DNA from: Borreliella garinii
Lineage (GTDB): Bacteria > Spirochaetota > Spirochaetia > JABEVK01
Reading direction: 5' to 3'
DNA length: 34,391 nucleotides
Assembly (NCBI GenBank): GCA_020720765.1
Contig: DYOB01000018.1
Coordinates: 1 to 34,391 of the forward strand
The position numbers and the translations under genes are program-made. The notes beneath the pieces are model-generated. The model did not search any database, was not told the DNA's origin, and saw nothing but the letters and a program-made list of their open reading frames with translations. Shown in pieces: positions 17,431 through 30,409 of this stretch (positions are counted from its first letter, which is position 1; each line of letters begins with the position of its first letter).

Positions 17431-18188
17431 TGCGCTACGAGTTTCTTGGAACAGGAACTTCGACGGGTGTTCCCGTCGTGGGGTGTAACTGCGCTGTCTG
17501 TACCTCTATGGACCCGCGTGACTATCGCCTGCGTTCCTCCCTCTTAGTTGAATGGGACGGGTTAAAAATTCTTATTGATGCCGGGCCTGATTTCCGTGGC
17601 CAGGCGCTTAGGGCCGGATTAAAAAAGGTCGACCACCTTCTGATAACACATTCCCATGCGGATCACGTGAATGGCCTTGATGATTTAAGGCCCATTTCCT
17701 TTCTCAATCCCATTCCTGTGTGGACCGGGACTGCTACTCTTTCGGCTTTAGGATCGAGGTTTTCCTACATGTTTGGAAAAAATACTGGACCGAGTTCGCG
17801 GCCCGAATTCAGGTTTCAGGAGATAACCGGACCGATTCATCTGGGTGAAGGTAAAACTGTAATTCCTATAGTTATCCACCACGGCCCACAGGATATCTTC
17901 GGCTTCCGGCTTGGCGACTTGGCCTACCTCACAGACTGTTCCGGCATTCCCGGGGAAAGCATGAAGCTCTTAGAGGGCGTTAAGCATATAATCGTGGGGG
18001 CCTTAAGACCTAAACCCCATCCTACGCATTTTTCTTTTACACAGGCTATTGAAGCCGTTCGACCTTTAGGGGCGGAAAAAGTTTGGTTGACACACCTCTC
18101 GCACGAGGTATCCCACACCCAAACAGAAACCCTGCTTCCCGAGGGATTTTGCGCCGCCTGGGACGGCTTATCCGTCCAGATTCCATAG
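17430..18188 (+). CDS. Metallo-beta-lactamase fold hydrolase, PhnP-like
   Basis: Landmarks of the PhnP-type branch are LGTGTSTGVPVVGC, the zinc-binding CNCAVC cluster (about 20-25), LRSSLLVEWDG, the metal motif THSHADHVNG (about 70-79), an HHG turn, the LTDCSG metal-bridging Asp, and LTHLSHEV with the last His. PhnP itself is a cyclic phosphodiesterase acting on ribosyl 1,2-cyclic phosphate. No other phosphonate (phn) genes are present, so the substrate is open. The 252 residues match the family. ATG 17430 overlaps the preceding stop by one base, so translation is probably coupled. IS copy B begins 26 nt after the stop without harming the gene. Confidence 0.9.
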   Translation: MRYEFLGTGTSTGVPVVGCNCAVCTSMDPRDYRLRSSLLVEWDGLKILIDAGPDFRGQALRAGLKKVDHLLITHSHADHVNGLDDLRPISFLNPIPVWTGTATLSALGSRFSYMFGKNTGPSSRPEFRFQEITGPIHLGEGKTVIPIVIHHGPQDIFGFRLGDLAYLTDCSGIPGESMKLLEGVKHIIVGALRPKPHPTHFSFTQAIEAVRPLGAEKVWLTHLSHEVSHTQTETLLPEGFCAAWDGLSVQIP

Positions 18189-18214
18189 AAGAAACCCAAC
18201 CAGTCGTTCCTTAG

Positions 18215-18765
18215 GAGCCTGTCGCGCTTGAGATTTTGACACAGGACCGGGGAGCCGGGATGCACAGGGCGCCGAAGACTGAGGGCCATAGCTGGGCTCT
18301 GGCCCGATGGATAAGGTGTTCTGGGCGCCCGAAAACCCAGAACTCCTTTTATGATTCCAAAGACCGGTTCGACGGTAGTCTTGCGTTTCTTATACAACTC
18401 CTTGGCCCTGTCCGTCTCCATTGCTTCTTTCATTTCTACGACCCACTTCTTGCGGTGTTTTTTTGGCGGTTTGAGCTGGGTGTGGGAGTGTGGACGGAAG
18501 TCAAATTTCCTTTGATGCCGTGCTGATTCAGAGGGGACAGATACAAGAACTTCCACACCTTGGGTCAACTGTTCGTCTTTTCCTTCTTCTTTTGAATCGG
18601 CGTCCTTGGCTTTCTGCAGCAATTCAGCGACTTTCTCTGAAAGTTCCTTCTCCAATTCCACCGCCCGGTCGTTGCGAATACTTTTGTATCGTGTCGCCAT
18701 GGGCAACAAAGTATCACACAGTTCAACCTCAAGTAAATTCCTGCGGTCTCAAGTGCAACAGGCTC
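18215..18765 (-). mobile_element. IS1182-like element copy B, 551 bp deletion derivative
   Basis: Both ends are visible. The terminal inverted repeats (GAGCCTGTYGCRCTTGAGA, 19 bp) start at 18215 and end at 18765. They are flanked by a perfect 4-bp duplication, TTAG at 18211-18214 and 18766-18769. Transposase orientation is minus. Against copies A and C it has two internal deletions: one right after MATRYKS, joining the extreme N-terminus to the C-terminal third, and one after GIIKGVLGF, joining coding sequence to the noncoding tail. At 551 bp it is MITE-like and depends on a transposase made elsewhere. The insertion falls exactly behind the bpt coding region, so the stop codon TAA is inside the duplicated TTAG/CTAA. 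Confidence 0.88.
18333..18700 (-). pseudogene. Transposase remnant of IS copy B
   Basis: From ATG 18700 the frame reads MATRYKSI, then jumps to RNDRAVELEKELSEKVAELL, a linker rich in Asp, Glu and Lys, then FDFRPHSHTQ, then WVVEMKEAMETDRAKELYKK, then RKTTVEPVFGIIKG. This is the start plus the C-terminal third of an IS1182-type DDE transposase. The final catalytic Glu (TTVEPVF) is kept; the two Asp are in the lost segment. The true C-terminal motif kept by copy A (AYNLKR) is missing. The frame stays open through the tail into the neighbouring gene by chance. Confidence 0.75.
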
Positions 18766-19467
18766 TTAGGTTAGATTTGAGTCACGGTGCCATTTTCCAG
18801 TGTGCCAATCCATGATCTCGTGAGGGTGGAAATTCCCCTTGTAGGCCATGGATGGATTGCTTTTTACGAGGAACCCGAGGTGGTAATGGGTTAAACCTCG
18901 GGCTACGGCTTCTTTGCATTCAGCGAAGACCGAAAAGATTCCCAGGCTATAGTCCTGGAATTCCCGGGAATAAATAAAATAGACCGAACTCATGGCTGAT
19001 TCGCTATAGTCGAGAAAACCCGCTCCTGCAAGTTTTCCATCGATGTAATATTCAGAGCGTAAGGCTGGAGCCCCGTTGAACCTGAAACTTTCGTTGAAAT
19101 CCTCCAGCTCTACCGGTTCTCGGCCAAACCGGAAGTAACTATGTTCGTTATAGAGATGAAAGACGGATTCAGAAGGCGGTTCTTCTGTGAAAAATACCTG
19201 GGTTTTCAAGTTTTTATGGAAAACACGCCTTTGACTTTTTGTGGGTTTAAGCTCGCGCGCCAGAATCCGGATAGGTCGGCATTCGAAACACACTTCGCAG
19301 TTAGGACGAAAAAAATTTCGGCCGAAGCGCCTCCAACCCGAACTGAGAAAAAATCCCCACTCTGAAGGGGTGAGATTTCCCGAGAAAAAAGTATTTTGGA
19401 TAAAAGTCCTCCCTGGCAAATAGGGGCACGGGGAATCATTCCTGAATATTTCTGTGTATTTATTCAT
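18766..19467 (-). CDS. bpt: Aspartate/glutamate leucyltransferase (bacterial ATE family)
   Basis: The enzyme transfers Leu (or Arg in relatives) from aminoacyl-tRNA to the N-terminus of proteins, which marks them for Clp degradation (N-degron pathway). The N-terminal domain has DSPCPYLPGRTF (about 11-22), then CEVCFECRPIR (58-68), the conserved Cys set. The C-terminal GNAT-like domain has the family end SLGIFSVFAE, then HYHLGFLVKSNPSMAYKGNF, then a Trp-rich tail. The 233-residue length is normal. The stop codon TAA (18768-18766) lies within the TTAG duplication of IS copy B, so the coding frame was not damaged. The gene is divergent from fabH. TAGATT ends 6 nt before the ATG and there is no SD. 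Confidence 0.93.
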   Translation of the reverse strand: MNKYTEIFRNDSPCPYLPGRTFIQNTFFSGNLTPSEWGFFLSSGWRRFGRNFFRPNCEVCFECRPIRILARELKPTKSQRRVFHKNLKTQVFFTEEPPSESVFHLYNEHSYFRFGREPVELEDFNESFRFNGAPALRSEYYIDGKLAGAGFLDYSESAMSSVYFIYSREFQDYSLGIFSVFAECKEAVARGLTHYHLGFLVKSNPSMAYKGNFHPHEIMDWHTGKWHRDSNLT

Positions 19468-19491: not shown

Positions 19492-19519
19492 TTGACCATG
19501 AAAGCACATTGATTAGAAT
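19492..19519 (+). promoter_or_regulatory. fabH promoter, predicted leaderless
   Basis: TTGACC (19492-19497), a 16-nt spacer and TAGAAT (19514-19519) form the clearest sigma70 promoter here. The predicted start of transcription, about 19526, is next to GTG 19527. The -10 overlaps sequence that would be coding if the upstream TTG (19509) were the start. Confidence 0.65.
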
Positions 19520-19526
19520 AAGTACA

Positions 19527-20504
19527 GTGGAACCTAAAATTCTTTCTACCGGCTGGTACCTTCCAAACCGAGTGGTGACAAACGAAGAGCTTTCTCGGAC
19601 TGTAGATACCAACGATGAATGGATCTTTACCCATACAGGAATTCGCGAAAGGCACATCGCAGCAGACGAGGAAGCTGCGTCGGATCTCGGTGCTTTTGCC
19701 CTTCAGGACGCTTTAGAACGGGCAGGAATTCAAGCACAAGACCTCGATTTGATTATCGTGGCCACCTCAACACCTGATTATCTGAGTTTTCCTTCTACGG
19801 CCAGTTTGATTCAAGATAGGGTGGGTGCCACGCGGGCTGGAGCTTTCGACATCAGTGTTGCTTGTTCTGGATTTACCTACGCCGTAGAGTTAGCCAGGGC
19901 GCATGTGCTTACCGGCGCAGGGCGCTACGTTGCTGTTATTGCGGCGGAGGTTTTCTCCAGGATTTTAAACTGGACCGACCGTAACACCTGCGTCCTTTTC
20001 GGGGACGGAGGCGGAGCGGTTATTATCGGGCCTTCAGAAAGTGGTCAAGGTATTCTGGGATCGATCCTGCGTTCTGAAGGCCAGGGGGCTCATGCGCTTG
20101 AACGCCCCGGCGGCGGATCGAGGTCCCCACTTCAGGTTGGCGAAGGACCCGAACATTTGTGGATGACCATGGACGGTAGAAGGGTTTATAATTTCGCAGT
20201 CAGGGTCTTAAAAGACACAATAGAAGAAATTCTTTTAAAATTCGGTAAAAAATTAGCGGAAGTCAGGTGGATCGTGCCCCATCAGGCAAATAAACGTATA
20301 ACTGAAGGTTGTGCCAAGCGCATGGGAATCGAGGATTCCCGGTTCTTTATGAATATTGACAGGTTTGCAAATACTTCAGCCGCAAGTATCCCTATAGCTT
20401 TAGCCGATATGGATCGTAAAGGTCTTTTAGTGCGAGGCGATCTCCTGGTCTTTATCGGTTTTGGTGCAGGGCTCGCCTACGCTGCGAATCTTATTTATTG
20501 GTGA
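19527..20504 (+). CDS. fabH: 3-oxoacyl-ACP synthase III (FabH)
   Basis: FabH condenses acetyl-CoA (or a branched acyl-CoA) with malonyl-ACP to start fatty acid synthesis. The catalytic triad is complete: Cys113 in SVACSGFTY, His252 in PHQANKR and Asn282 in DRFANTSAASIP. The start EPKILSTGWYLPNRVVTNEEL aligns residue for residue with the E. coli start when GTG 19527 is used. A TTG 18 nt upstream would add six residues and lie inside the promoter. The 325-residue length is normal. It is not in a fab/plsX/acpP cluster. Ser-Ala-Ala-Ser after Asn282 and the glycine-rich GFGAGLAYA end are typical. It lies upstream of the partner-switching operon on the same strand. Confidence 0.96.
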   Translation: MEPKILSTGWYLPNRVVTNEELSRTVDTNDEWIFTHTGIRERHIAADEEAASDLGAFALQDALERAGIQAQDLDLIIVATSTPDYLSFPSTASLIQDRVGATRAGAFDISVACSGFTYAVELARAHVLTGAGRYVAVIAAEVFSRILNWTDRNTCVLFGDGGGAVIIGPSESGQGILGSILRSEGQGAHALERPGGGSRSPLQVGEGPEHLWMTMDGRRVYNFAVRVLKDTIEEILLKFGKKLAEVRWIVPHQANKRITEGCAKRMGIEDSRFFMNIDRFANTSAASIPIALADMDRKGLLVRGDLLVFIGFGAGLAYAANLIYW

Positions 20505-20521
20505 TTTCTATAAAAAATCAC
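20501..20521 (+). other. Weak hairpin overlapping the fabH stop
   Basis: GTGATTT (20501-20507) pairs with AAATCAC (20515-20521) around a 7-nt loop. It is AT-rich with no T-run after it on this strand, so it is at best a weak terminator before the promoter at 20522. Confidence 0.2.
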
Positions 20522-20550
20522 TTGCTATATTCCATTTTCTGCTTTACTAT
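20522..20550 (+). promoter_or_regulatory. Promoter of the partner-switching operon
   Basis: TTGCTA (20522-20527), a 17-nt spacer and TACTAT (20545-20550) make a good sigma70-type promoter. The predicted transcription start near 20557 leaves a 23-nt leader holding the SD GGTAGG for the ATG at 20580. Confidence 0.65.
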
Positions 20551-20579
20551 GAGGTATAACGGTAAAAAAAGGTAGGAAA

Positions 20580-21050
20580 ATGGCAAAGAAACCTGATGGT
20601 TATATAGAGTTAAAGTTCGGACCTCGTTGGAGGTACATTGCGCCGGCGCGCGGGTTTATTCAGAGTTTCGTCGCTATTGCGATAGAAGATCAAAATAAGG
20701 CCGACGGTATAGCCATGGCAGCTTCGGAACTTCTTGAAAATGCTGTGAAATACTCGGCCGGTGAAGAAACAATTATTATAGTTCAGGCTTATCCTGATCA
20801 GAATCTTATCAGTTGTTCCGTCACCAACCAAGGTACAGCAGAATCCGCCAAGGAACTCCAGGGTCTTTATAAAAGAATAATGTCAGGTGACGCTCTAGAA
20901 GCTTATATCTCTCAAATGCGCGAAGCAGCAGTTCGTCAGGATGGAAAAAGTCAGCTCGGGTTAGCTCGTATTCGGTACGAGGTCGGAGCAAATATTAAGC
21001 TGGAGGTATCTCCAGATTATAAGATTACCATCACTATTGAAGTACACTAA
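20580..21050 (+). CDS. RsbW/SpoIIAB-like GHKL ATPase-fold protein (possible anti-sigma or switch kinase)
   Basis: This 156-residue protein has the single-domain GHKL shape of anti-sigma kinases. The N box is clear: MAASELLENAVKYS (46-59) with Glu50, Glu53 and Asn54. The G1 box, usually DxGxG, reads TNQGTAE (82-88), so the Asp is replaced by Asn83 and the second Gly is absent. A G2-like GKSQLGLARI follows at 122-131. ATP may be bound poorly or differently; the protein could be a pure binding switch. A STAS gene follows 17 nt later, and a PP2C phosphatase closes the operon, as in Rsb modules. No sigma factor gene is in the window, so the final target is unknown. It has its own promoter and an SD. 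Confidence 0.8.
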   Translation: MAKKPDGYIELKFGPRWRYIAPARGFIQSFVAIAIEDQNKADGIAMAASELLENAVKYSAGEETIIIVQAYPDQNLISCSVTNQGTAESAKELQGLYKRIMSGDALEAYISQMREAAVRQDGKSQLGLARIRYEVGANIKLEVSPDYKITITIEVH

Positions 21051-21067
21051 GGTTAAAGGAAGGTATC

Positions 21068-21454
21068 ATGGCCAATAATAAACTGGGGATTGAATCTGTT
21101 GCTCAGGAAAAGATAAAAATTGAAGTTATTGATGTAGGACCCGGTATCGGGGTAAATTTTGTTGGTGATATCGACATGGAAGATCCTAGTATCATCTTGG
21201 ACCCTGTTTTTGAGAAGATTCATTTAGGGGTTGTTGCTAATAAAATTCCCGATGTTTACGCTGATTTCAAGGGACTCAATTTTCTTAACTCTTCCGGTAT
21301 TAAGGCTGTAGCCAAGTGGATTATGAAACTTGCCATGCTTCCTCCGGATAAAAAATACAATATCCGAATTCAGCACAATAAAGCGATCACATGGCAGGTG
21401 ACGAGCCTTCCCACTTTGACCTTCCTAGTACCGGGAGCCGTCAAGATCGAATGA
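21068..21454 (+). CDS. STAS-domain protein (anti-anti-sigma-like antagonist)
   Basis: The 128-residue product has the STAS layout: an N-terminal strand pair, a helix, then GLNFLNSSGIKAVAKWI (69-85). That matches the phospho-Ser loop DSSGL of SpoIIAA/RsbV with Asn in place of Asp. Ser75 aligns with the phosphorylated serine. The strands before it are longer than in RsbV. It is presumably phosphorylated by a GHKL kinase and dephosphorylated by the PP2C protein at the operon end; both steps are inferred. The SD AGGAAGG is strong. The stop forms an ATGA overlap with the next gene, so STAS and MCP-like proteins should be made together. Confidence 0.8.
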   Translation: MANNKLGIESVAQEKIKIEVIDVGPGIGVNFVGDIDMEDPSIILDPVFEKIHLGVVANKIPDVYADFKGLNFLNSSGIKAVAKWIMKLAMLPPDKKYNIRIQHNKAITWQVTSLPTLTFLVPGAVKIE

Positions 21455-22509
21455 GTTTAGAACGGAGATGGGTTCTCCGGCTCGCACTTAGTTTTTTCCT
21501 CGTTGGGATTTGGGGATTCCTACTTCTTTGGCAAGGCCCTATGCTCCTTCGTGGGGTCATTGCCGTAGCGACAGGGTTCACACAGCTCCTTCTTATCTTT
21601 TTTGATCGAATGAAAGTTGTCATTAAGGCGCCCGAACCTCTGACTATGCTCGAATCTCCCGAGGTACTGACAGCACGGCTTGAAGAAACTGTAAAACCTG
21701 AGAATTATCCAAAACTGACCGAGATGGTGGAAGAACTCAGGAACGCTGTTTTAGACCTTTCAAACGATGTTCAGGAAAAGGCTCTTACGAAGGATTCATT
21801 CCAAGGTATCCATGATTTCGTCGAGAGTTCCCAATTTATCAACGAAAACGTGTACCGTGCGTATGAAATTTCGGATAATTTGGCAAATACTGCGAAGCAA
21901 GCCTTTGAACTCAGTGAAAACGTTCAGACTGGTGTGAAAATTGTTACAGAGTCACTTTCTGAAAGTCTAAAATTCACCGAGCTCCTTTTTTCCCAATCAA
22001 AAAAAATATCCAAGATATTAACAATTATGAGCGATATTTCTGAAAAAATTCACGTTTTATCCATTAATGCCTCCATTGTTTCAGCTCGAGCTGGTGTGAG
22101 CGGGAAGGGATTTGAGGTGGTGGCCAAAGAAATCCGAAACCTTGCCAAGGAAACCGAAAATAGTTTGTCGGATATAGAAAATGTGATTGCAGAAGTTCAG
22201 CTTACGATACAGAATGTAATAGAGAAGGTTGAGGTTGCTCATAAAGAAGCCGAAACTGAAAAGGGTTCTCTTCTTTCTGTCGCCGGTTCGCTCCAAGGTG
22301 TTATACTTGCTGTTGAAATCATCAGGGCCGTTAGCGGGGTGGCTAAAGAGCGAGGGGAAACCCAAACAGATCAAATCAACCGATCCTTGGATACAGCGAC
22401 CAAGAACCGGAAGAATGAGGTTCTCGATGAAGTGGCAACGTCCTTCTCCGAGATCGGTTTACGGGTGGAGGATTTGATTCAAATGCTTCATGCTTGTCAA
22501 GAGGAGTAA
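21451..22509 (+). CDS. Membrane-anchored MCP-like signalling protein with altered tip
   Basis: The start is ATG 21451 (ATGA overlap with the STAS stop), giving 352 residues. Two TM helices (about 7-25 and 31-50) form a hairpin with hardly any outside loop, so no ligand domain exists. There is no clear HAMP. A long coiled coil follows, with an MCP-like hairpin tip at about 190-230. The tip reads SINASIVSARAG, then SGKGFEVVAKEIRNLAKE, close to chemoreceptors. Residues used for CheA/CheW contact are changed: canonical QTN is K199-I200-H201, and the Glu residues of NAAIEAARAGE are V210 and V216. A role inside the partner-switching cascade fits better than chemotaxis, but this is inference. The next ATG lies 2 nt after the stop. 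Confidence 0.82.
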   Translation: MSLERRWVLRLALSFFLVGIWGFLLLWQGPMLLRGVIAVATGFTQLLLIFFDRMKVVIKAPEPLTMLESPEVLTARLEETVKPENYPKLTEMVEELRNAVLDLSNDVQEKALTKDSFQGIHDFVESSQFINENVYRAYEISDNLANTAKQAFELSENVQTGVKIVTESLSESLKFTELLFSQSKKISKILTIMSDISEKIHVLSINASIVSARAGVSGKGFEVVAKEIRNLAKETENSLSDIENVIAEVQLTIQNVIEKVEVAHKEAETEKGSLLSVAGSLQGVILAVEIIRAVSGVAKERGETQTDQINRSLDTATKNRKNEVLDEVATSFSEIGLRVEDLIQMLHACQEE

Positions 22510-22511
22510 GT

Positions 22512-24677
22512 ATGCTTGAAAATTTTATGTTGTTTTACCTGTTTTCATTTTTCCCCGTCATTGGGATAGGGGTCATCCTTTGGTTTGAGAGGATATCCAG
22601 GAGAGGGTCGGGTTCGCGCACTTTTTTCCTCTTCTTATCCCTGCTTTTGGTGACATTAACGGGTATTTTTCAGGCTTTTACCCAGAGCTTCAGGGAGTAT
22701 TTCCCTCCGACTTCTAACTTTCAGATCATAGCTCTGAGCGGTTTTTTTCTTTTTCTTGCTCAATTGACTCTTGAGTACGCCATCCACTCAAGGCGTATCC
22801 AAGAAAGTTTTCTCATGCCCGACTTTATCAAGGGACTTAGACCTTTGATTCTGATGATTATTGCGACTTTCATTGTGATCCTTGTGACTTTTATCTATAT
22901 GCCCTACCATGCGAAGCTCCTTGGTAATTCCATGGAGTCTTTCCTGGTTCCCGCTGGCCAGCGAAATAACCCGCTCGTTGTGTATTCGACGAATATCGGG
23001 TTCTTCAGTACTATTTACTTTCTCTTAATGCTCGTCATGACCTTCCAGGCGACGAATTCCATATTTAAGTTGCAGGAAGGGGTTATTCGTTCCAGATCTT
23101 ACCCCTTTTTCTTCCAGTTTCTTATCTTGGTTTTCTTCGGAATTTTTCTTTTCGGCTCGAAAGGAACTATCGATGGCGTTGCTCCGCTGTTTTATTTCAT
23201 TGTTTCCATCCTCTTTTTTATGATCCGTATGGTCGAGGAATTCTTCTTCTGGTCCATGTACAACCTGAGGAGCGACAGGGTGAGGATCGAACAGCGGCAG
23301 CATGATTTGAACCTCCTTATCCGCAGGGTTATCTCGAGTCCGGATGAGGAAGATATTAAAATCGTGCAGGAGACCATTGAGAATGCCCTGTCCAAGGCTA
23401 AGGGCAGGATGGTGGTACACGAATATAATATCACTGGCTTCCTCGCTTTCCGCGTCCATGGGAATGTTCTGAAGATGGATAGTCCCGATCTGCTTTTCGG
23501 CTACTGTACTCCACTTGTGGACAATAAAAACTTTAAATCCCTGGATAAAGCCAAACTCAATGATATGGTTATCCGCTCGACCTATGATTTGGAAGTTCTT
23601 CGTTCCACACCTATCGAAAATCTCAAAGATTTTGGTATGAAACTTCTTAAAAAAGCCATGATGGAAAAGGATGCGGTCATACTTTCTGAATTGCCCGAGA
23701 ACTTCAGGGGATTACAGCGTCTTATCGGTGTATATCCCATTATGGACACGAACAACTTTGTCGGGGCCGCAGTTTTCTTCAAGGATAGTTTTTACCAGCT
23801 TTATCCTTTAGAGAAAGAAATTATCGGTGAGATGGTAGAAAACCTTGGTACGATATTTGCCCTGATGAATGGAAAAGAGATCCAAAGAGAACGGAATAGA
23901 CTCCAGGGTGAGATGAACACCGCACGTAACATTCAGACTTCTATTCTACCGAAGAAGCTTGCTATCAAGGGCTACCAAGTCGGCGCAAGCATGCAGACAG
24001 CTACCGAGGTAGGAGGAGACGTCTATGATCTGGTACCCCACTTGAAGGGGAACTACATCAGTATCGGTGACGTCAGCGGACACGGACTACCTGCCGGAAT
24101 GATGGCGACCATCGAAATGTCGGCATTCCACGGCGCTTTGGAGACAGCAAGGACCCTTGAAGTCGATCTATCGGTTGATAAAATTTATGACATTGTCAAC
24201 AGGGTTTTATGCGTGATCAACCGAGACCGAATAGGCAGTGATAAGTTTATGACCATGAACTATCTGTTTGAAAACGAAGGAAAGTTCATACACGCAGGTA
24301 CTCACGAGGTAGCACTTGTTTTCCGTCAAGCTACGGGTGAGATCGAGGAGCTGAGCAACTGTATTGATAAGACCGGTTTTCTCGGTATTTCCGAGTTTGT
24401 TGTGTCCACCCAGTCATTAGGCAAATTTGAACTTGGAAGCGGAGATATTCTCATTCTTTATACCGATGGTGTAATTGAGGCCAAGACGATAACGGGTGAA
24501 CAGTACGATATTCAGCATCTCAAGGCGATTGTAAAAGAAAACTACGCTCTGACGCCCGATGAAATCATCGTTAAAATAAGAGATGACCTGGAAAGGTGGG
24601 CCAAGGATGGTGATATCAAGAAAAATAACGGACACTTTGCCGACGACGTCACTCTTGTTGTTCTGAAGAGGGACTAA
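22512..24677 (+). CDS. 7TM-GAF-SpoIIE/PP2C-type serine phosphatase
   Basis: The SD GAGGAG sits just before ATG 22512; an earlier in-frame start overlaps the MCP-like gene. The 721-residue protein has seven hydrophobic helices in the first 260 residues (first at about 5-25, last near 240-260, VAPLFYFIVSILFF), then a coiled linker. A GAF-like domain follows at about 290-450, and the SpoIIE/RsbU PP2C core at about 480-721. Metal ligands are present: GGDVYD with Asp503, GDVSGHG, YTDGV-E and DDVTLVV. It should dephosphorylate the STAS partner in response to a membrane or cytoplasmic cue. The last 29 nt overlap the TPR gene on the opposite strand. No terminator is visible. Confidence 0.92.
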   Translation: MLENFMLFYLFSFFPVIGIGVILWFERISRRGSGSRTFFLFLSLLLVTLTGIFQAFTQSFREYFPPTSNFQIIALSGFFLFLAQLTLEYAIHSRRIQESFLMPDFIKGLRPLILMIIATFIVILVTFIYMPYHAKLLGNSMESFLVPAGQRNNPLVVYSTNIGFFSTIYFLLMLVMTFQATNSIFKLQEGVIRSRSYPFFFQFLILVFFGIFLFGSKGTIDGVAPLFYFIVSILFFMIRMVEEFFFWSMYNLRSDRVRIEQRQHDLNLLIRRVISSPDEEDIKIVQETIENALSKAKGRMVVHEYNITGFLAFRVHGNVLKMDSPDLLFGYCTPLVDNKNFKSLDKAKLNDMVIRSTYDLEVLRSTPIENLKDFGMKLLKKAMMEKDAVILSELPENFRGLQRLIGVYPIMDTNNFVGAAVFFKDSFYQLYPLEKEIIGEMVENLGTIFALMNGKEIQRERNRLQGEMNTARNIQTSILPKKLAIKGYQVGASMQTATEVGGDVYDLVPHLKGNYISIGDVSGHGLPAGMMATIEMSAFHGALETARTLEVDLSVDKIYDIVNRVLCVINRDRIGSDKFMTMNYLFENEGKFIHAGTHEVALVFRQATGEIEELSNCIDKTGFLGISEFVVSTQSLGKFELGSGDILILYTDGVIEAKTITGEQYDIQHLKAIVKENYALTPDEIIVKIRDDLERWAKDGDIKKNNGHFADDVTLVVLKRD

Positions 24678-26412
24678 AAGGAATCACCCGGTGTGTAGAA
24701 CGAAGCAGGTCTATCCAGACCTTCGTTGAAGCCGGGTCCCCCTGGATAATTCCGTTTCTCTGAGGCAAGCCTTCACCCACCAACGACCATGTGAGCGAAT
24801 CTGGCCCGACCTTCAGTTTGAGGGTATTACCTCTTTTCTCCGGATCACCCCAGCCAGCAGACCACCTCCAGACATTAAAACGACCAAGCCAATCCGGTTT
24901 TGTCCCTTCCCATTCTATGTTGAAAGGAAGAGGTAGGTTATTGATCGCCAAGAGTCCTGAATTGCGTTTAAATAACGCCAGTCTCGTGTCTTCCGAAAGA
25001 AATGACCCGCTTGAAGGAGCTTTTCTCAGAAGGAAGAGCAGTCCCTCTTCAATCATATCCGAGTCCCATACGGTGTCGAGGTTTTCGAGAGCCCGTCTGA
25101 CCGATGCGGGATCCTCTTTTATCAAGGCTGTTTGAAAGGTATAAAAAGGCGGTGATTTGGGAATCACGCTTTCTTCCCATTTTCTGCTGAGTTCCAAATA
25201 TTTCTCTGCAGGCCATGGGTAGTCTTCATAGGAAAGAAAATTCTTCCATAGTACGAGTGGAGTATTTCCTTTGGATGAGGATTCTGTCGCGCTTTCCCAT
25301 GTCAGACTTCTCCAAGTTTCCCTGTGATGAAAGCCTTGCCAGGCGTAGCCGATTTTTTTAATGAGCCACGAGACCCATTCCCAAGGCCAGAAACGGTCCT
25401 CATAATCTGCAAGGGCTGTCAATTGTTCGTACGCGTCGGTATAAGCCCTATGTAGGTCTTTTTGCCAAGCTGATTCCCGCAAACCAAAGTTATAGATCCA
25501 GCTAGGGTCAGGGTGCATTTCTGCTGATCGAATATATTCTAAAGCAGCCTCAGGATTACCTGTTTGCAGATAAAGCATGGCTAGATTCATCTTCGACAGT
25601 GGCGTATCGTCTCTTGAAGCCGCTTCTTCATAAGTTACCCTGGCAAGTGCATAATCACCCCTCATCTCTTGCATTTCCCCGAGTGCGATGTACCCCGAGG
25701 CTCGTTGAGCGTATTCCAAGGATCGTTGAATGGATTCGAGAGCCTGCCCTGGTTCATAAAATGTATTTTCTAAAATGGAACGGTTGTAATATGCGATGCT
25801 CACAAAAACACGGGATCGCTGTGTTAATCCAAGATCTATGCTTTTTTGATAGTGAAACCTGGATTTTTCGAAGTCATAGAGGCTGGAATAGAGGGTGCCG
25901 AGGGTCATTTCAGCGTTTGGATTTTCACCCATGCGCTTAGTAGCCTCAAGGATAAGATCAATACCTTTTGAATACTCTTCGAGTTTAAAATACAGCCATG
26001 CCTGGGCCTGAATGAGATCCCAGTCGTCCGGGAAAAGTAAACGTGTTTCTTCCAATACTTTGAGTGCGTCGTTATCCAGGTTAAGGAGACCATAGGATTC
26101 AGCAAGCCTGTAGGCGTACTCGTATTCAGTGGGTCTGAGCCTGCGTGCCTTTTCATATTCTGCTGCGCTCAGTCTATAGAGCTTTTTTTCATAAAACATG
26201 TCAGCCAGTGCCGCTGGAAAACGAACCTCTTCAGGGTATAGAATCTGACCCAGGTGCCACCACTCAAGGGCCTTCTGGAAATTTTCGGCACCCCTTGCGC
26301 TCGAACCTTTTTGCAGAAGGGTTTCCCTGTCGGGTACGTTGAGTCCGTCTTGTCCGTAGAGGCAGAAACTGAAAAAGGCGAGCATAAGGATCCAGTGTGA
26401 TCTTAAAACCAT
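24649..26412 (-). CDS. Secreted TPR-repeat protein
   Basis: The N-terminus is a signal peptide (WILMLAFFSFCLYGQ). At least eight TPR-like units run from about 28 to 310, for example AENFQKALEWWHLGQILYP, AAEYEKARRLRPTEYEYAYR and GNPEAALEYIRSAEMHPD. A Trp-rich region of about 280 residues without clear repeats follows. The protein is probably periplasmic or outer-surface and scaffolds a complex. It ends the operon HD-GYP, MoxR, DUF58, TgpA-like. In Bat (Bacteroides aerotolerance) operons a TPR protein occupies a similar place, but the BatA/BatB von Willebrand proteins are missing here. The SD GGAGG lies 5 nt before the ATG, and the start overlaps the transglutaminase stop by 10 nt. Confidence 0.85.
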   Translation of the reverse strand: MVLRSHWILMLAFFSFCLYGQDGLNVPDRETLLQKGSSARGAENFQKALEWWHLGQILYPEEVRFPAALADMFYEKKLYRLSAAEYEKARRLRPTEYEYAYRLAESYGLLNLDNDALKVLEETRLLFPDDWDLIQAQAWLYFKLEEYSKGIDLILEATKRMGENPNAEMTLGTLYSSLYDFEKSRFHYQKSIDLGLTQRSRVFVSIAYYNRSILENTFYEPGQALESIQRSLEYAQRASGYIALGEMQEMRGDYALARVTYEEAASRDDTPLSKMNLAMLYLQTGNPEAALEYIRSAEMHPDPSWIYNFGLRESAWQKDLHRAYTDAYEQLTALADYEDRFWPWEWVSWLIKKIGYAWQGFHHRETWRSLTWESATESSSKGNTPLVLWKNFLSYEDYPWPAEKYLELSRKWEESVIPKSPPFYTFQTALIKEDPASVRRALENLDTVWDSDMIEEGLLFLLRKAPSSGSFLSEDTRLALFKRNSGLLAINNLPLPFNIEWEGTKPDWLGRFNVWRWSAGWGDPEKRGNTLKLKVGPDSLTWSLVGEGLPQRNGIIQGDPASTKVWIDLLRSTHRVIPFSPSSEQQE

Positions 26413-28415
26413 AGTAGCCTCCAGAAAGATGGACGGTGGGTTCTCCTCGAAAGAATCATCCGGTGCGCTGCTTGAGATTCGATGAAAGCCGAAGTAGGTA
26501 GCTCCCGTGAGTATAGCGCCATTTCATAGAAGGTAGTTATAATTTTTAATTCAGGGGAAGGTATTATATGGAAAATTTCATTGGGAGTAAGGCGTGACGC
26601 ATCGTTGCTCAATGAGAGTTGAAGGTAGTCCCTGACCCATTTGTAAAGAGCAATAATTCTTAGTCTTTCCGGTCGAATGAACATTAACCACAGATATCTC
26701 CGGAACTTCCAGAATATTGCCGCAAGGATAAAAGTGATAAAGAGGAAAATTACCAAGTCGGTTGAACTGGGCCACCATCTTTCGGAATGAGAATCGGCTA
26801 TTGATTCTACTTCATTAGTCTGTATCTCGGTGAGATGGGCACCCAGAATATCCTCAACCATGGAAAGGAAAGCATCGTCGGCAGATGCGTTTAGGTTCCA
26901 GTCCTCTCCCGGGGCAAGGGTTGCACTTGTCGGGTCGAAAGTCACCCATCCGTTTTCAAGCGACAACACTTCAACCCAGGCATGCGCCTGAAAAGACTTG
27001 ATGGGATAAAACGATAGAACTTCAGAATTTTTATCTACCAAAAATCCCACTGCTACACGGCTGGGGATTCCGAGGCTACGAAGCATCAAGACCATGGAAA
27101 AAGCAAAATATGAACAGTATCCTTTCTTAGCCTGGAAGAGAAAATGGTGAAGCGGTGGCTGGTTTACCGCTACACCAGGTTTCAGAGAATAGAAGAAATT
27201 TTCGAGAAGATAAACCAGGATCCTTTTGGTGATGGCATTTGAATCAGATAAACCTTGGGTTATTTCCTTAGCAAGACCAGCTATTTTTTCATCATCACCA
27301 TAATTGGTGTAGTAGGCATAAGCTTCTGCTGTGAGCTTGCCTGGTGAATCGGATATAGTCCAAACTGAACTTTCCAAAACTTGACTTGTAACTCTATACG
27401 CCCCTCGAAACTTGTTCATGTCCCATCCTGTTAGAGGGATGGCCCTTACAGGCTGGTTGAGGGCAAAAACCAAACTTGGGTCGAGGTTGACGAGGTAAAC
27501 TTCCTGTTGGACTTCAGTTCGTGTTAGGGAAGGTGCAGGTTCCATGACGAGTTCAGAAGAACCTAGATTCCAAGGCACCTCATCATCCTCGGGGGCTTGC
27601 TCATTCCAGAAAAAGCCCTTTTCTGAATCGTAGCCGCTGAGGACCTGCCTTCTGAGCATCTGATCCCTGGGATAACCCTCCCTTCTATAAATCATGACGA
27701 GGTCGTCATCGAGTTTGATTTCACTTTCCAGTTTAATAATCGGGGCAAAGTCGAAACCGAATAGGGTGGGTTGGATTAGACCCGCACCTTCGGAGGATGA
27801 GTTTTTTTGGTATTGGTTGAAGGAAAGGTACCCAGTGAAAAGGGCGAGGGGTAAAAAAAACAACCCGCCTACTAAAGGTCTCCAATGACGGATTTCGTTT
27901 TGATCTCTGTAGAGTTGATCCAACTCCCAAAAAATAAAAGCAAAAACGAGAAAAAGAGGGAGAAGCGGATGGGTCCAGAAAGGGGCGAAGGCTATTTTCT
28001 GAAAGAAGAAGAGAAGTAGTGCTAAGGAGATGTGGAGTAAGTGACGCCACTTAGAAAGTTCGGGTTTTTTTTCCACCGCCCTGAAACCTATCCAGAAGAA
28101 GACTCCTTGAGCAAGTGAGAGTAACATCGCACGGTCCCATAACGGGAAAAAGGTATCAAGCGGGGTGGGTTCACCGAAAGTTAAAAGCCTGAAAATTCCC
28201 TTAATAAGAAAGTTAAGGAGAATGGTTGATAGTACTGTGGAGAAAATACTGGAAGCCCAGTTCAAATTAAAATGATGTTGTATAACGCCGATAACGAAAA
28301 AAAACGCGATCCAGGCAAGCACAGGCCAAACTGCAACAAGGTCTGGAAAGAAAGTCCAGGAAAGAAAACCGAGGAACAGTCCACTTAACAGTCCTGAGAT
28401 TCTTTGTCTTTTCAT
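26403..28415 (-). CDS. TgpA-like transmembrane transglutaminase
   Basis: The start is ATG 28415 (ATGA overlap with the DUF58 stop, GGGAG upstream), giving 670 residues. Five or six TM helices span about 5-205. A long extracytoplasmic part contains the transglutaminase core, with catalytic Cys434 in GYCSYFAFSMVLMLRSLGIP, His in AHAWVEV and Asp in FDPTS. Another TM helix (DLVIFLFITFILAAIFW, about 560-580) and a C-terminal cytoplasmic stretch like DUF4129 follow. TgpA-type proteins are membrane cysteine enzymes acting at the envelope; substrates are mostly unknown. The MoxR-DUF58-TgpA string is a common conserved neighbourhood. Confidence 0.9.
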   Translation of the reverse strand: MKRQRISGLLSGLFLGFLSWTFFPDLVAVWPVLAWIAFFFVIGVIQHHFNLNWASSIFSTVLSTILLNFLIKGIFRLLTFGEPTPLDTFFPLWDRAMLLSLAQGVFFWIGFRAVEKKPELSKWRHLLHISLALLLFFFQKIAFAPFWTHPLLPLFLVFAFIFWELDQLYRDQNEIRHWRPLVGGLFFLPLALFTGYLSFNQYQKNSSSEGAGLIQPTLFGFDFAPIIKLESEIKLDDDLVMIYRREGYPRDQMLRRQVLSGYDSEKGFFWNEQAPEDDEVPWNLGSSELVMEPAPSLTRTEVQQEVYLVNLDPSLVFALNQPVRAIPLTGWDMNKFRGAYRVTSQVLESSVWTISDSPGKLTAEAYAYYTNYGDDEKIAGLAKEITQGLSDSNAITKRILVYLLENFFYSLKPGVAVNQPPLHHFLFQAKKGYCSYFAFSMVLMLRSLGIPSRVAVGFLVDKNSEVLSFYPIKSFQAHAWVEVLSLENGWVTFDPTSATLAPGEDWNLNASADDAFLSMVEDILGAHLTEIQTNEVESIADSHSERWWPSSTDLVIFLFITFILAAIFWKFRRYLWLMFIRPERLRIIALYKWVRDYLQLSLSNDASRLTPNEIFHIIPSPELKIITTFYEMALYSRELPTSAFIESQAAHRMILSRRTHRPSFWRLLWF

Positions 28416-29421
28416 GCTTTCTCCCATTCAGAGGGAATCACCCATTGGGTGTTCTTCCTGGAAAGTAGGCTCAGGTGGTGGTTAAAGTTGGGTGATGAAG
28501 GATCTCCGAAAATCAGAGTATATTCAGGCCAGAGCTCTGGCTTCCAACTGGTAGGGGCACATGGAAAAACTCCCGCCATCAATTTTCTAAGCTTACCTGT
28601 ATCTTCACCGGTGGTCCATGTTCCGTCGGGAAAAAAAATATGAAGGGGATGCATTTTCAATTCACAATAAGACAGACAATTTGCAAGTGCATTGATTCCC
28701 TTATCGAGAAGGTATAAAGCCCATTCATTTCTCGAAGACACCCAGGGATCAAAAACTATTGTAATTTCATCGTGCGGAGGAGGTGTTGATTCTTCGGTGC
28801 GGAGGATAAGCTGTCCCGAGTGGGCTAGAAGCTTCCAATTGATATGCCTGATGTCGTCGCCAGGATAATAGGGGCGGGCGTCAAATCTGTCCTCGAGAAT
28901 ACGAGGTCTTCCGGAGGAGGTAGAGGTCTGCCCTGTTGTTTTTGAATCTATTTCCATAAAGGGATTAAGTTCATGGATAGGAATCAAAACTATTTCTGCT
29001 TCGCCGTGTACCTTTACGGAAAAATTGAACCAGCGGAAAGCGTCCCTAAGCTCTAGGGAACCGCAAGAGCCTTTATATAAACCTCTCGGGCCTTTTTCCT
29101 GGAACATCAATTCAGAACGACCAGATAATACTCGATGCTGCCCCTCTAAACTTCTTGAATCGGTAAATGACCATTGATATTCCCAGAAAAGCAGGATGCC
29201 AGGAAGGAAGATTTTATCTACTCTAGTCTCGAGAACCCAAGAGTCTTCTTCTGTCTGGCGCCAAATATGTTTGCGCCCAGAAAGTCTAAGATAGGTAAAG
29301 AATAGCCCTAACCATAAAAGAAGAAATAGCGTCAGAAGGAATCCGCCTCCTGCGAGGAAGATCAGATCTGATTGTAAAAGTCCTGTAAGAACGAAAAAGA
29401 CGGAGATAAAAAAAAAGCCAT
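28412..29421 (-). CDS. DUF58 membrane protein, frame interrupted at an A9/T9 tract
   Basis: The DUF58 motif is clear: FDARPYYPGDDIRHINWKLL, then LILRTEE. The motif domain starts shortly after an in-frame TTG (29110), but the same frame stays open upstream to the moxR stop. It encodes two TM helices (ISVFFVLTGLLQSDLIFLAG, then FLLTLFLLLWLGLFFTYL) and a beta-rich linker that ends in SELMFQEK. That is the normal N-terminus of DUF58 proteins, so the gene really begins near ATG 29421. The ATG is one base out of frame; adding one T to the T9 run (29408-29416) restores it. A GGAGG lies at 29438-29442. Possible causes are a sequencing error, phase variation or transcriptional slippage. TTG 29110 would give only 232 residues. 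Confidence 0.72.
29408..29416 (-). repeat. Homopolymer A9 (T9 on the coding strand) at the DUF58 start
   Basis: Nine consecutive A on the plus strand lie 2 nt past the ATG codon of DUF58 (29421-29419). The run is one base short of joining the ATG to the long frame. Runs of this length are known sites of replication or RNA-polymerase slippage. Confidence 0.85.
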
Positions 29422-29446
29422 ACCAAAGGCCGTTATGCCTCCGATT

Positions 29447-30409
29447 TTAACAATGTTGTTTTTTGATTTCATCGCGTATCCAGTTTTCTACGAGTTCGGT
29501 ACTTTTTTTCTGGGTATTTTTAAGGAGCATTCTATGGGCAAATACATCAATTCCAAGGTCGAGGACATCTTGGTCTGTAACAAAATTTCTACCATGGAAA
29601 AGAGCCCAAACGCGTACAGCACGTAGGAGGTGGATGCCTGCCCGGGGTGAAAGACCGAGTTTCACCTCAGGAGATTTCCTGCTTGCAACCAAGACTGAAC
29701 GAACGAGCGCGGTAATTTTAGGGTCAACAAAGACTTGATGGCTAGTCTCCCTTATTTTTAGAGCTTCTTCAGCAGAGAATAATGGTGAAAGGTTGAGTCC
29801 TCCGCTTCTCGAAGAAACCTCGTTAAGAATTCTGAGTTCGTCCTCTTCTTCAGGGTACCCGACTGAAAGCTGAAAGAGAAACCTATCCAGCTGTGCCGCA
29901 GGAAGAGGGTACGTACCTTCCATGTCGTGTGGATTCTGGGTTGCGGCCACGAAGAAGAGCGGATGCAGAGGCCTTGTATAATTGCCTACGGTTACAGACC
30001 CCTCTTCCATGGCCTCCAGCAAGGCGCTTTGAACCTTTGGGGTGGCCCTGTTGATTTCATCTGCAAGGACTATGGCTGAGAAGACGGGCCCAGGTTGAAA
30101 ACGAAAACTCCGAGATTCCGGGTCGAAGATATCGACACCCGTAATATCGTAGGGGAGTAGATCTGGTGTGAATTGAATTCGGCGGAACATGACCACACCG
30201 CGCTTGGCCTTAAAGACCTGAGCAAGGGCCTTAACAGCTGTGGTCTTTCCGACACCCGGGACATCCTCAATTAAAACATGCCCTCCGCAGACAAGCCCGG
30301 TAACGAGTTTCATCAAGAATGAAGTTTTACCATTGACAGCCATGGAAAGCGTTTCAACGAGTTCCTTACCGAACTGAAAAGCCAAATCTTTCTCTTTATC
30401 TGAAACCAT
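29447..30409 (-). CDS. MoxR-family AAA+ ATPase
   Basis: This 320-residue chaperone-like ATPase has Walker A GVGKTTAVKAL (about 50-60), Walker B AIVLADEINRA, sensor 1 in FVAATQNPHDMEGTYPLPAAQLDRF (the NP-x-E-x-GTYPLP-E/A-AQLDRF signature of MoxR), sensor 2 in GLSPRAG, and a C-terminal lid. MoxR ATPases usually act with DUF58 or vWA partners to mature envelope or metal-containing complexes. The start overlaps the HD-GYP stop by one base (TAATG), so translation is probably coupled. The stop TAA is in the same frame as the DUF58 open frame that follows. Confidence 0.95.
   Translation of the reverse strand: MVSDKEKDLAFQFGKELVETLSMAVNGKTSFLMKLVTGLVCGGHVLIEDVPGVGKTTAVKALAQVFKAKRGVVMFRRIQFTPDLLPYDITGVDIFDPESRSFRFQPGPVFSAIVLADEINRATPKVQSALLEAMEEGSVTVGNYTRPLHPLFFVAATQNPHDMEGTYPLPAAQLDRFLFQLSVGYPEEEDELRILNEVSSRSGGLNLSPLFSAEEALKIRETSHQVFVDPKITALVRSVLVASRKSPEVKLGLSPRAGIHLLRAVRVWALFHGRNFVTDQDVLDLGIDVFAHRMLLKNTQKKSTELVENWIRDEIKKQHC

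Follow-up and report, generated by a model that had tools for sequence, protein, structure and literature searches.

A conserved partner-switching gene cluster with an MCP-like hairpin protein as its accessory member

Gene content and core proteins of the locus

The window analysed here, that is, the whole stretch of 34,391 nucleotides, contains four adjacent genes on the forward strand. They encode a GHKL switch protein resembling the slr1658 superfamily (20580..21050), a STAS protein resembling the slr1659 superfamily (21068..21454), an MCP-like protein (21451..22509), and a phosphatase with seven transmembrane helices, a GAF-like region and a SpoIIE-type PP2C domain (22512..24677). All four open reading frames lie where the sequence-only reading had placed them. 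Its spacing also stands: the STAS stop and the MCP-like start share an ATGA at 21451-21454, and the MCP-like stop (22509) is separated by 2 nt from the phosphatase ATG (22512). The MCP-like frame can be extended 5' to 21391; we set its start at the ATG at 21451 because of the ATGA overlap and because the nearest relatives start at the same point. An ATGA or GTGA overlap between the STAS and MCP-like genes is retained in 5 of 11 loci, the remaining spacings ranging from -11 to +27 nt.

The claim that the four genes stand under one promoter was not supported, as a promoter scan of 20350-20580 gave no sigma-70-like match. The nearest good consensus match at an operon start lies at 19492-19519, before fabH (beta-ketoacyl-ACP synthase III; 19509..20504, forward strand; TIGR00747, 361 bits), which adjoins the GHKL gene on its 5' side and is possibly the first gene of the transcription unit. 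Further upstream, 17924-18774 has by eye the look of a transposase fragment. On the 3' side, a convergent operon (24649-30409: a TPR protein, a transglutaminase-like membrane protein and two further genes) is kept beside the module in several relatives.

The assignment to partner switching is borne out by the core proteins, which include a SpoIIE-type PP2C with its metal-binding aspartates and a STAS protein with a conserved phospho-acceptor serine. The GHKL protein has only sub-threshold Pfam matches and is best described by the NCBIfam slr1658 superfamily (E 1.4e-17; 63.7 bits against a cut-off of 100). Its N-box (SELLENAVKY) is invariant, while the canonical DxGxG G1 box is absent and the G1 region atypical. 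For the STAS protein the Pfam scan gave no match, and the NCBIfam slr1659 superfamily was again hit below its cut-off (E 3e-11; 43.6 bits against 100). In a profile alignment with SpoIIAA that spans the phospho-serine, S75 takes the aligned position, and the surrounding NSSG motif (N74, S75, S76 and G77) is invariant among homologues. Judging from its own motifs, the GHKL protein is a likely, though still putative, kinase of the STAS protein. The phosphatase matches SpoIIE (PF07228) with 88.7 bits for a cut-off of 25, and its metal-site aspartates D503, D520, D652 and D711-D712 are invariant in 17 homologues; the enzyme is probably active. The earlier 7TM-GAF-PP2C description of this protein stands for its two ends: hydropathy and the AlphaFold model support the seven hydrophobic helices, and the PP2C domain (~488-720), following a helical linker (432-473), has SpoIIE and SiaA-PP2C as its closest solved folds when the model is compared with known structures. 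The middle part (278-430) is GAF-like only by its predicted order of strands and helices, Pfam making no call there.

Among known systems, the GHKL and STAS pair resembles slr1658/slr1659 of cyanobacteria, both proteins matching these models (NF047703/NF047705 superfamilies), although the scores fall below the curated cut-offs and a 7TM-PP2C phosphatase and an MCP-like protein are added here. The GHKL protein also reaches 16.5 bits against DUF6272 (Pfam gathering threshold 26.6), the family to which we take SiaB to belong. The same logic of phosphatase, kinase and antagonist is found in SiaABCD of Pseudomonas aeruginosa (PP2C SiaA, kinase SiaB, STAS-like SiaC, cyclase SiaD), where the target of this three-part switch is a cyclase instead of a sigma factor (PMC7647112). 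The SiaC phosphopeptide LLYLNTSSIK (PMC7647112) resembles FLNSSGIK of the STAS protein; in contrast to the Sia operon, there is no diguanylate cyclase here and an MCP-like protein is present. With SpoIIAA/SpoIIAB/SpoIIE and RsbV/RsbW/RsbU the locus shares the SpoIIE-type phosphatase and the STAS serine, which sits in an SSG motif and aligns with that of SpoIIAA, but it differs from them by the atypical GHKL protein without a canonical G1 box (the SpoIIAB model scores only 12.6 bits) and by a conserved operon with no recognised sigma gene. In the mapped loci, where domain scans covered part of the neighbouring ORFs, none of the conserved genes was recognised as one for a sigma factor; a distant one is possible. 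Since the core resembles the slr1658/slr1659 and SiaABC switches and not the sigma-B systems, a missing sigma factor is unsurprising. The sequence-only reading had taken this absence to mean that the output could not be told, a step that does not follow, as known outputs of switches of this type need not be sigma factors.

Conservation of the cluster and history of the MCP-like gene

To place the locus among its relatives, 395 genomes of the class were searched with a STAS profile and an MCP-like profile. Strong matches to the STAS lineage were found in 20 genomes. The MCP-like profile matched 12, all of them also carrying the STAS match, and, wherever no contig end falls between them, the two matches are close neighbours with the same orientation. 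Counting one further genome (G006), in which the gene is inferred because the contig ends shortly into an MCP-like N-terminus with its start in the same ATGA, 13 of the 20 STAS-lineage genomes carry the MCP-like gene. The order GHKL-STAS-MCP-PP2C, on one strand and one contig, is seen in ten loci (G000, G001, G005, G058, G183, G032, G068, G140, G300 and G255, the last with its phosphatase cut by the contig end after the transmembrane region). Two loci are spread over more than one contig (G003 and G115). The contig-end fragments of G003 and G006 are compatible with the same order, while G115 is reordered to PP2C-GHKL-STAS-MCP. In the remaining 7 of the 20 loci, the MCP-like gene is missing while GHKL-STAS-PP2C is there; in one of them, from the same family (G004), only 3 nt separate the STAS stop from the PP2C start. 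The four-gene order proposed for a search in other genomes is thus conserved across many genera, which puts the arrangement beyond a chance grouping, and the MCP-like gene, whose absence from all related operons would by the sequence-only reading have refuted its model, is present in 13 of 20.

The MCP-like proteins form a sharply separate family: orthologues score 340-439 bits, and a clean gap divides them from the remaining MCPs, none of which exceeds 97. On this ground, an ordinary chemoreceptor that has lost its sensor was rejected. A phylum-wide search of 393 genomes found no orthologue outside the class, and in the genomes searched none occurs without this STAS lineage. On a tree of concatenated GHKL, STAS and PP2C sequences, at least six changes in MCP-like presence are needed, each of the six being required by well-supported branches. 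The tree of the MCP-like proteins, whose branches are long and whose backbone is weak, repeats well-supported groupings of the core tree (G000/G001, G003/G005 and G032/G068 with G255) and joins G183 with G140, two members of a single core-tree clade. The simplest reading of these trees would be a single early acquisition followed by vertical descent and repeated loss. For the G032/G068 pair, dN/dS of the MCP-like gene was 0.24, versus 0.07-0.18 for its neighbours (other pairs are saturated), and the gene is therefore under purifying selection; as judged by this measure, it is evolving faster than its neighbours, yet constrained. No residue of the GHKL, STAS or PP2C proteins convincingly tracks the presence of the MCP-like gene in our comparison of the core, and so no interface was identified. 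Because the gene was repeatedly lost with the three-gene core retained, and because no core residue follows it, the MCP-like protein is an accessory, and the core can presumably work without it.

A rewired chemoreceptor hairpin

The MCP-like protein matches MCPsignal (PF00015) with 73.8 bits for a cut-off of 34.6 and shares this domain and the hairpin fold with methyl-accepting chemotaxis proteins (Tsr, Thermotoga receptors). Two transmembrane helices near the N-terminus and a variable linker are all that precedes the MCP-type hairpin (~130-297), no sensor, ligand-binding or HAMP domain being called. The orthologue of G300 is without transmembrane segments, and membrane tethering is therefore not universal. 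In structure comparison of the hairpin, chemoreceptor hairpins were returned first; as the monomer model is of moderate confidence (pTM 0.42, DSSP running through the turn), it was used for fold assignment only.

We compared the 12 orthologues with 35 other MCPs, taken from these genomes and from related ones, using Tsr numbering by alignment. At tip position 385, all 12 orthologues have Val and all 35 other MCPs have Glu. Position 376 is His in 9/12 versus Asn in 29/35, and position 391 is unconserved among the orthologues, while the canonical tip residues R388, N381 and F396 are retained. E385 and R388' of adjacent dimers form an inter-dimer ionic lock in receptor trimers (PMC8144572). With this lock lost, an array of the kind suggested by the sequence-only reading is unlikely. 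Its other suggestion, that the protein does not serve CheA/CheW, fared better: such a role appears unlikely from the alignment, since the tip has lost a residue kept by every other MCP compared. The presence of CheA and CheW is no discriminator, as both occur in nearly all MCP-like carriers and in nearly all genomes, nor is much to be read from methylation-like motifs (2/12 hairpin-bearing orthologues), given that they are seen in only 18/35 of the other MCPs, a weak control.

Invariant in the family, besides tip residues, are the base residues D142, N143, Q159, G279, Q282, G283 and E289. They include a base motif unique to these proteins, invariant or nearly so, in which D142-N143 of the first arm roughly faces G279-S-L-Q-G283 of the second, close to the hairpin base. 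The strong conservation of a tip whose trimer lock is gone suggests that it may have a new binding partner. Taken together, the exclusive, separate family and Val385 identify a dedicated, rewired MCP-type hairpin and not an ordinary chemoreceptor.

A candidate mechanism, its alternatives and the output of the module

We propose, with about an even chance of being right, that the locus encodes a membrane-linked, Sia-like partner switch of the slr1658/slr1659 type with its own MCP-type hairpin tuning the cycle. The GHKL protein would bind the STAS protein and probably phosphorylate it at S75, the 7TM-PP2C phosphatase would strip this phosphate on a membrane or cytosolic signal, and the phosphorylation state would decide which partner the STAS protein binds. 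Having lost a key chemoreceptor contact and being inherited with the cluster, the MCP-like protein probably works for the cluster rather than in chemotaxis: it would no longer join CheA/CheW arrays, and its coiled-coil hairpin, membrane-tethered in most lineages, may hold or gate one module protein (STAS, GHKL or phosphatase), using the re-specialised tip and the base motif for that hold and so tuning the phosphorylation cycle. A scaffold role, as in the earlier working model, is plausible. More tentatively, and we consider it rather unlikely in this specific form, the tip that in chemotaxis controls the GHKL kinase CheA could now control the GHKL/STAS pair.

The hairpin could also act on the 7TM phosphatase only and never touch the STAS or GHKL proteins; a coiled coil formed with the dimerisation linker of the phosphatase would be one way. 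The MCP-like gene adjoins the phosphatase gene 5' in all ten single-contig loci, both proteins have N-terminal transmembrane segments, and the helical linker ahead of the PP2C domain would offer a site for such pairing. Nonetheless, in G115 the phosphatase gene precedes GHKL and the MCP-like gene is still found after STAS, the G300 protein does without a membrane segment, and covarying residues are none, so that we hold this version to be unlikely too. That the protein is a real chemoreceptor subunit, feeding the module's state into CheA/CheW arrays or recruiting the module to an array, seems improbable to us. It has on its side the strong MCPsignal match, a hairpin model that aligns with receptor structures, the retained R388, N381 and F396, and carriers that nearly all possess CheA and CheW; yet the E385V change is universal in the family, there is no sensor domain, methylation-like motifs are few (a weak point, given the controls), and one carrier that is 94% complete (G003) shows no CheA dimerisation domain. 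A passive passenger of the operon, working elsewhere in the cell, would fit the persistence of the core without the MCP-like gene in 7 genomes, but orthologues are never found outside the module, they occupy the same slot across families and are under purifying selection, and we regard this reading as very improbable. For the tuned partner switch, we found no precedent in open-licence papers linking MCP-like proteins to partner switching.

As for the output, fabH lies directly 5' on the same strand in 11 of the 20 module loci, and fabD, fabG and fabF are near the module in several relatives. This linkage hints at a connection to lipid or envelope state or to fatty-acid synthesis, but it may reflect nothing more than synteny. 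A second, orphan STAS protein of the slr1659 superfamily, with no adjoining GHKL gene, is encoded in the organism's own genome (G000:C383) and in a congener (L103:4412-4792 and L104:7049-7429), and could be a competitor or an output partner. Just 3' of it (L103, 4789-5094) is a short ORF very similar to that of the transposase-like region at 17924-18774. Both congeners also encode, next to an AAA ATPase of 587 aa, another GHKL protein of this type (L136:4721-6998 and L137:2773-5095). Elsewhere, one family of the class has multiplied its GHKL and STAS genes, with a tandem array of seven genes at L138:4856-8519; in this family, the SpoIIE phosphatase of one module bears a LacI-type sugar-binding domain (L140:1293-5177), and another module adjoins a glycoside hydrolase gene (L142:2222-5774).

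Almost the only role known for MCP signalling hairpins is the control of CheA/CheW. A hairpin family tied to a partner switch, with its trimer lock lost and its tip conserved, is a natural experiment on what other partners such a tip can have. It also adds an accessory layer to a partner switch whose operon has no recognised sigma factor, and for which the fabH linkage is a first lead on the output. If a chemoreceptor-type tip does control the GHKL/STAS pair, chemosensory and partner-switching signalling would be directly bridged in evolution.
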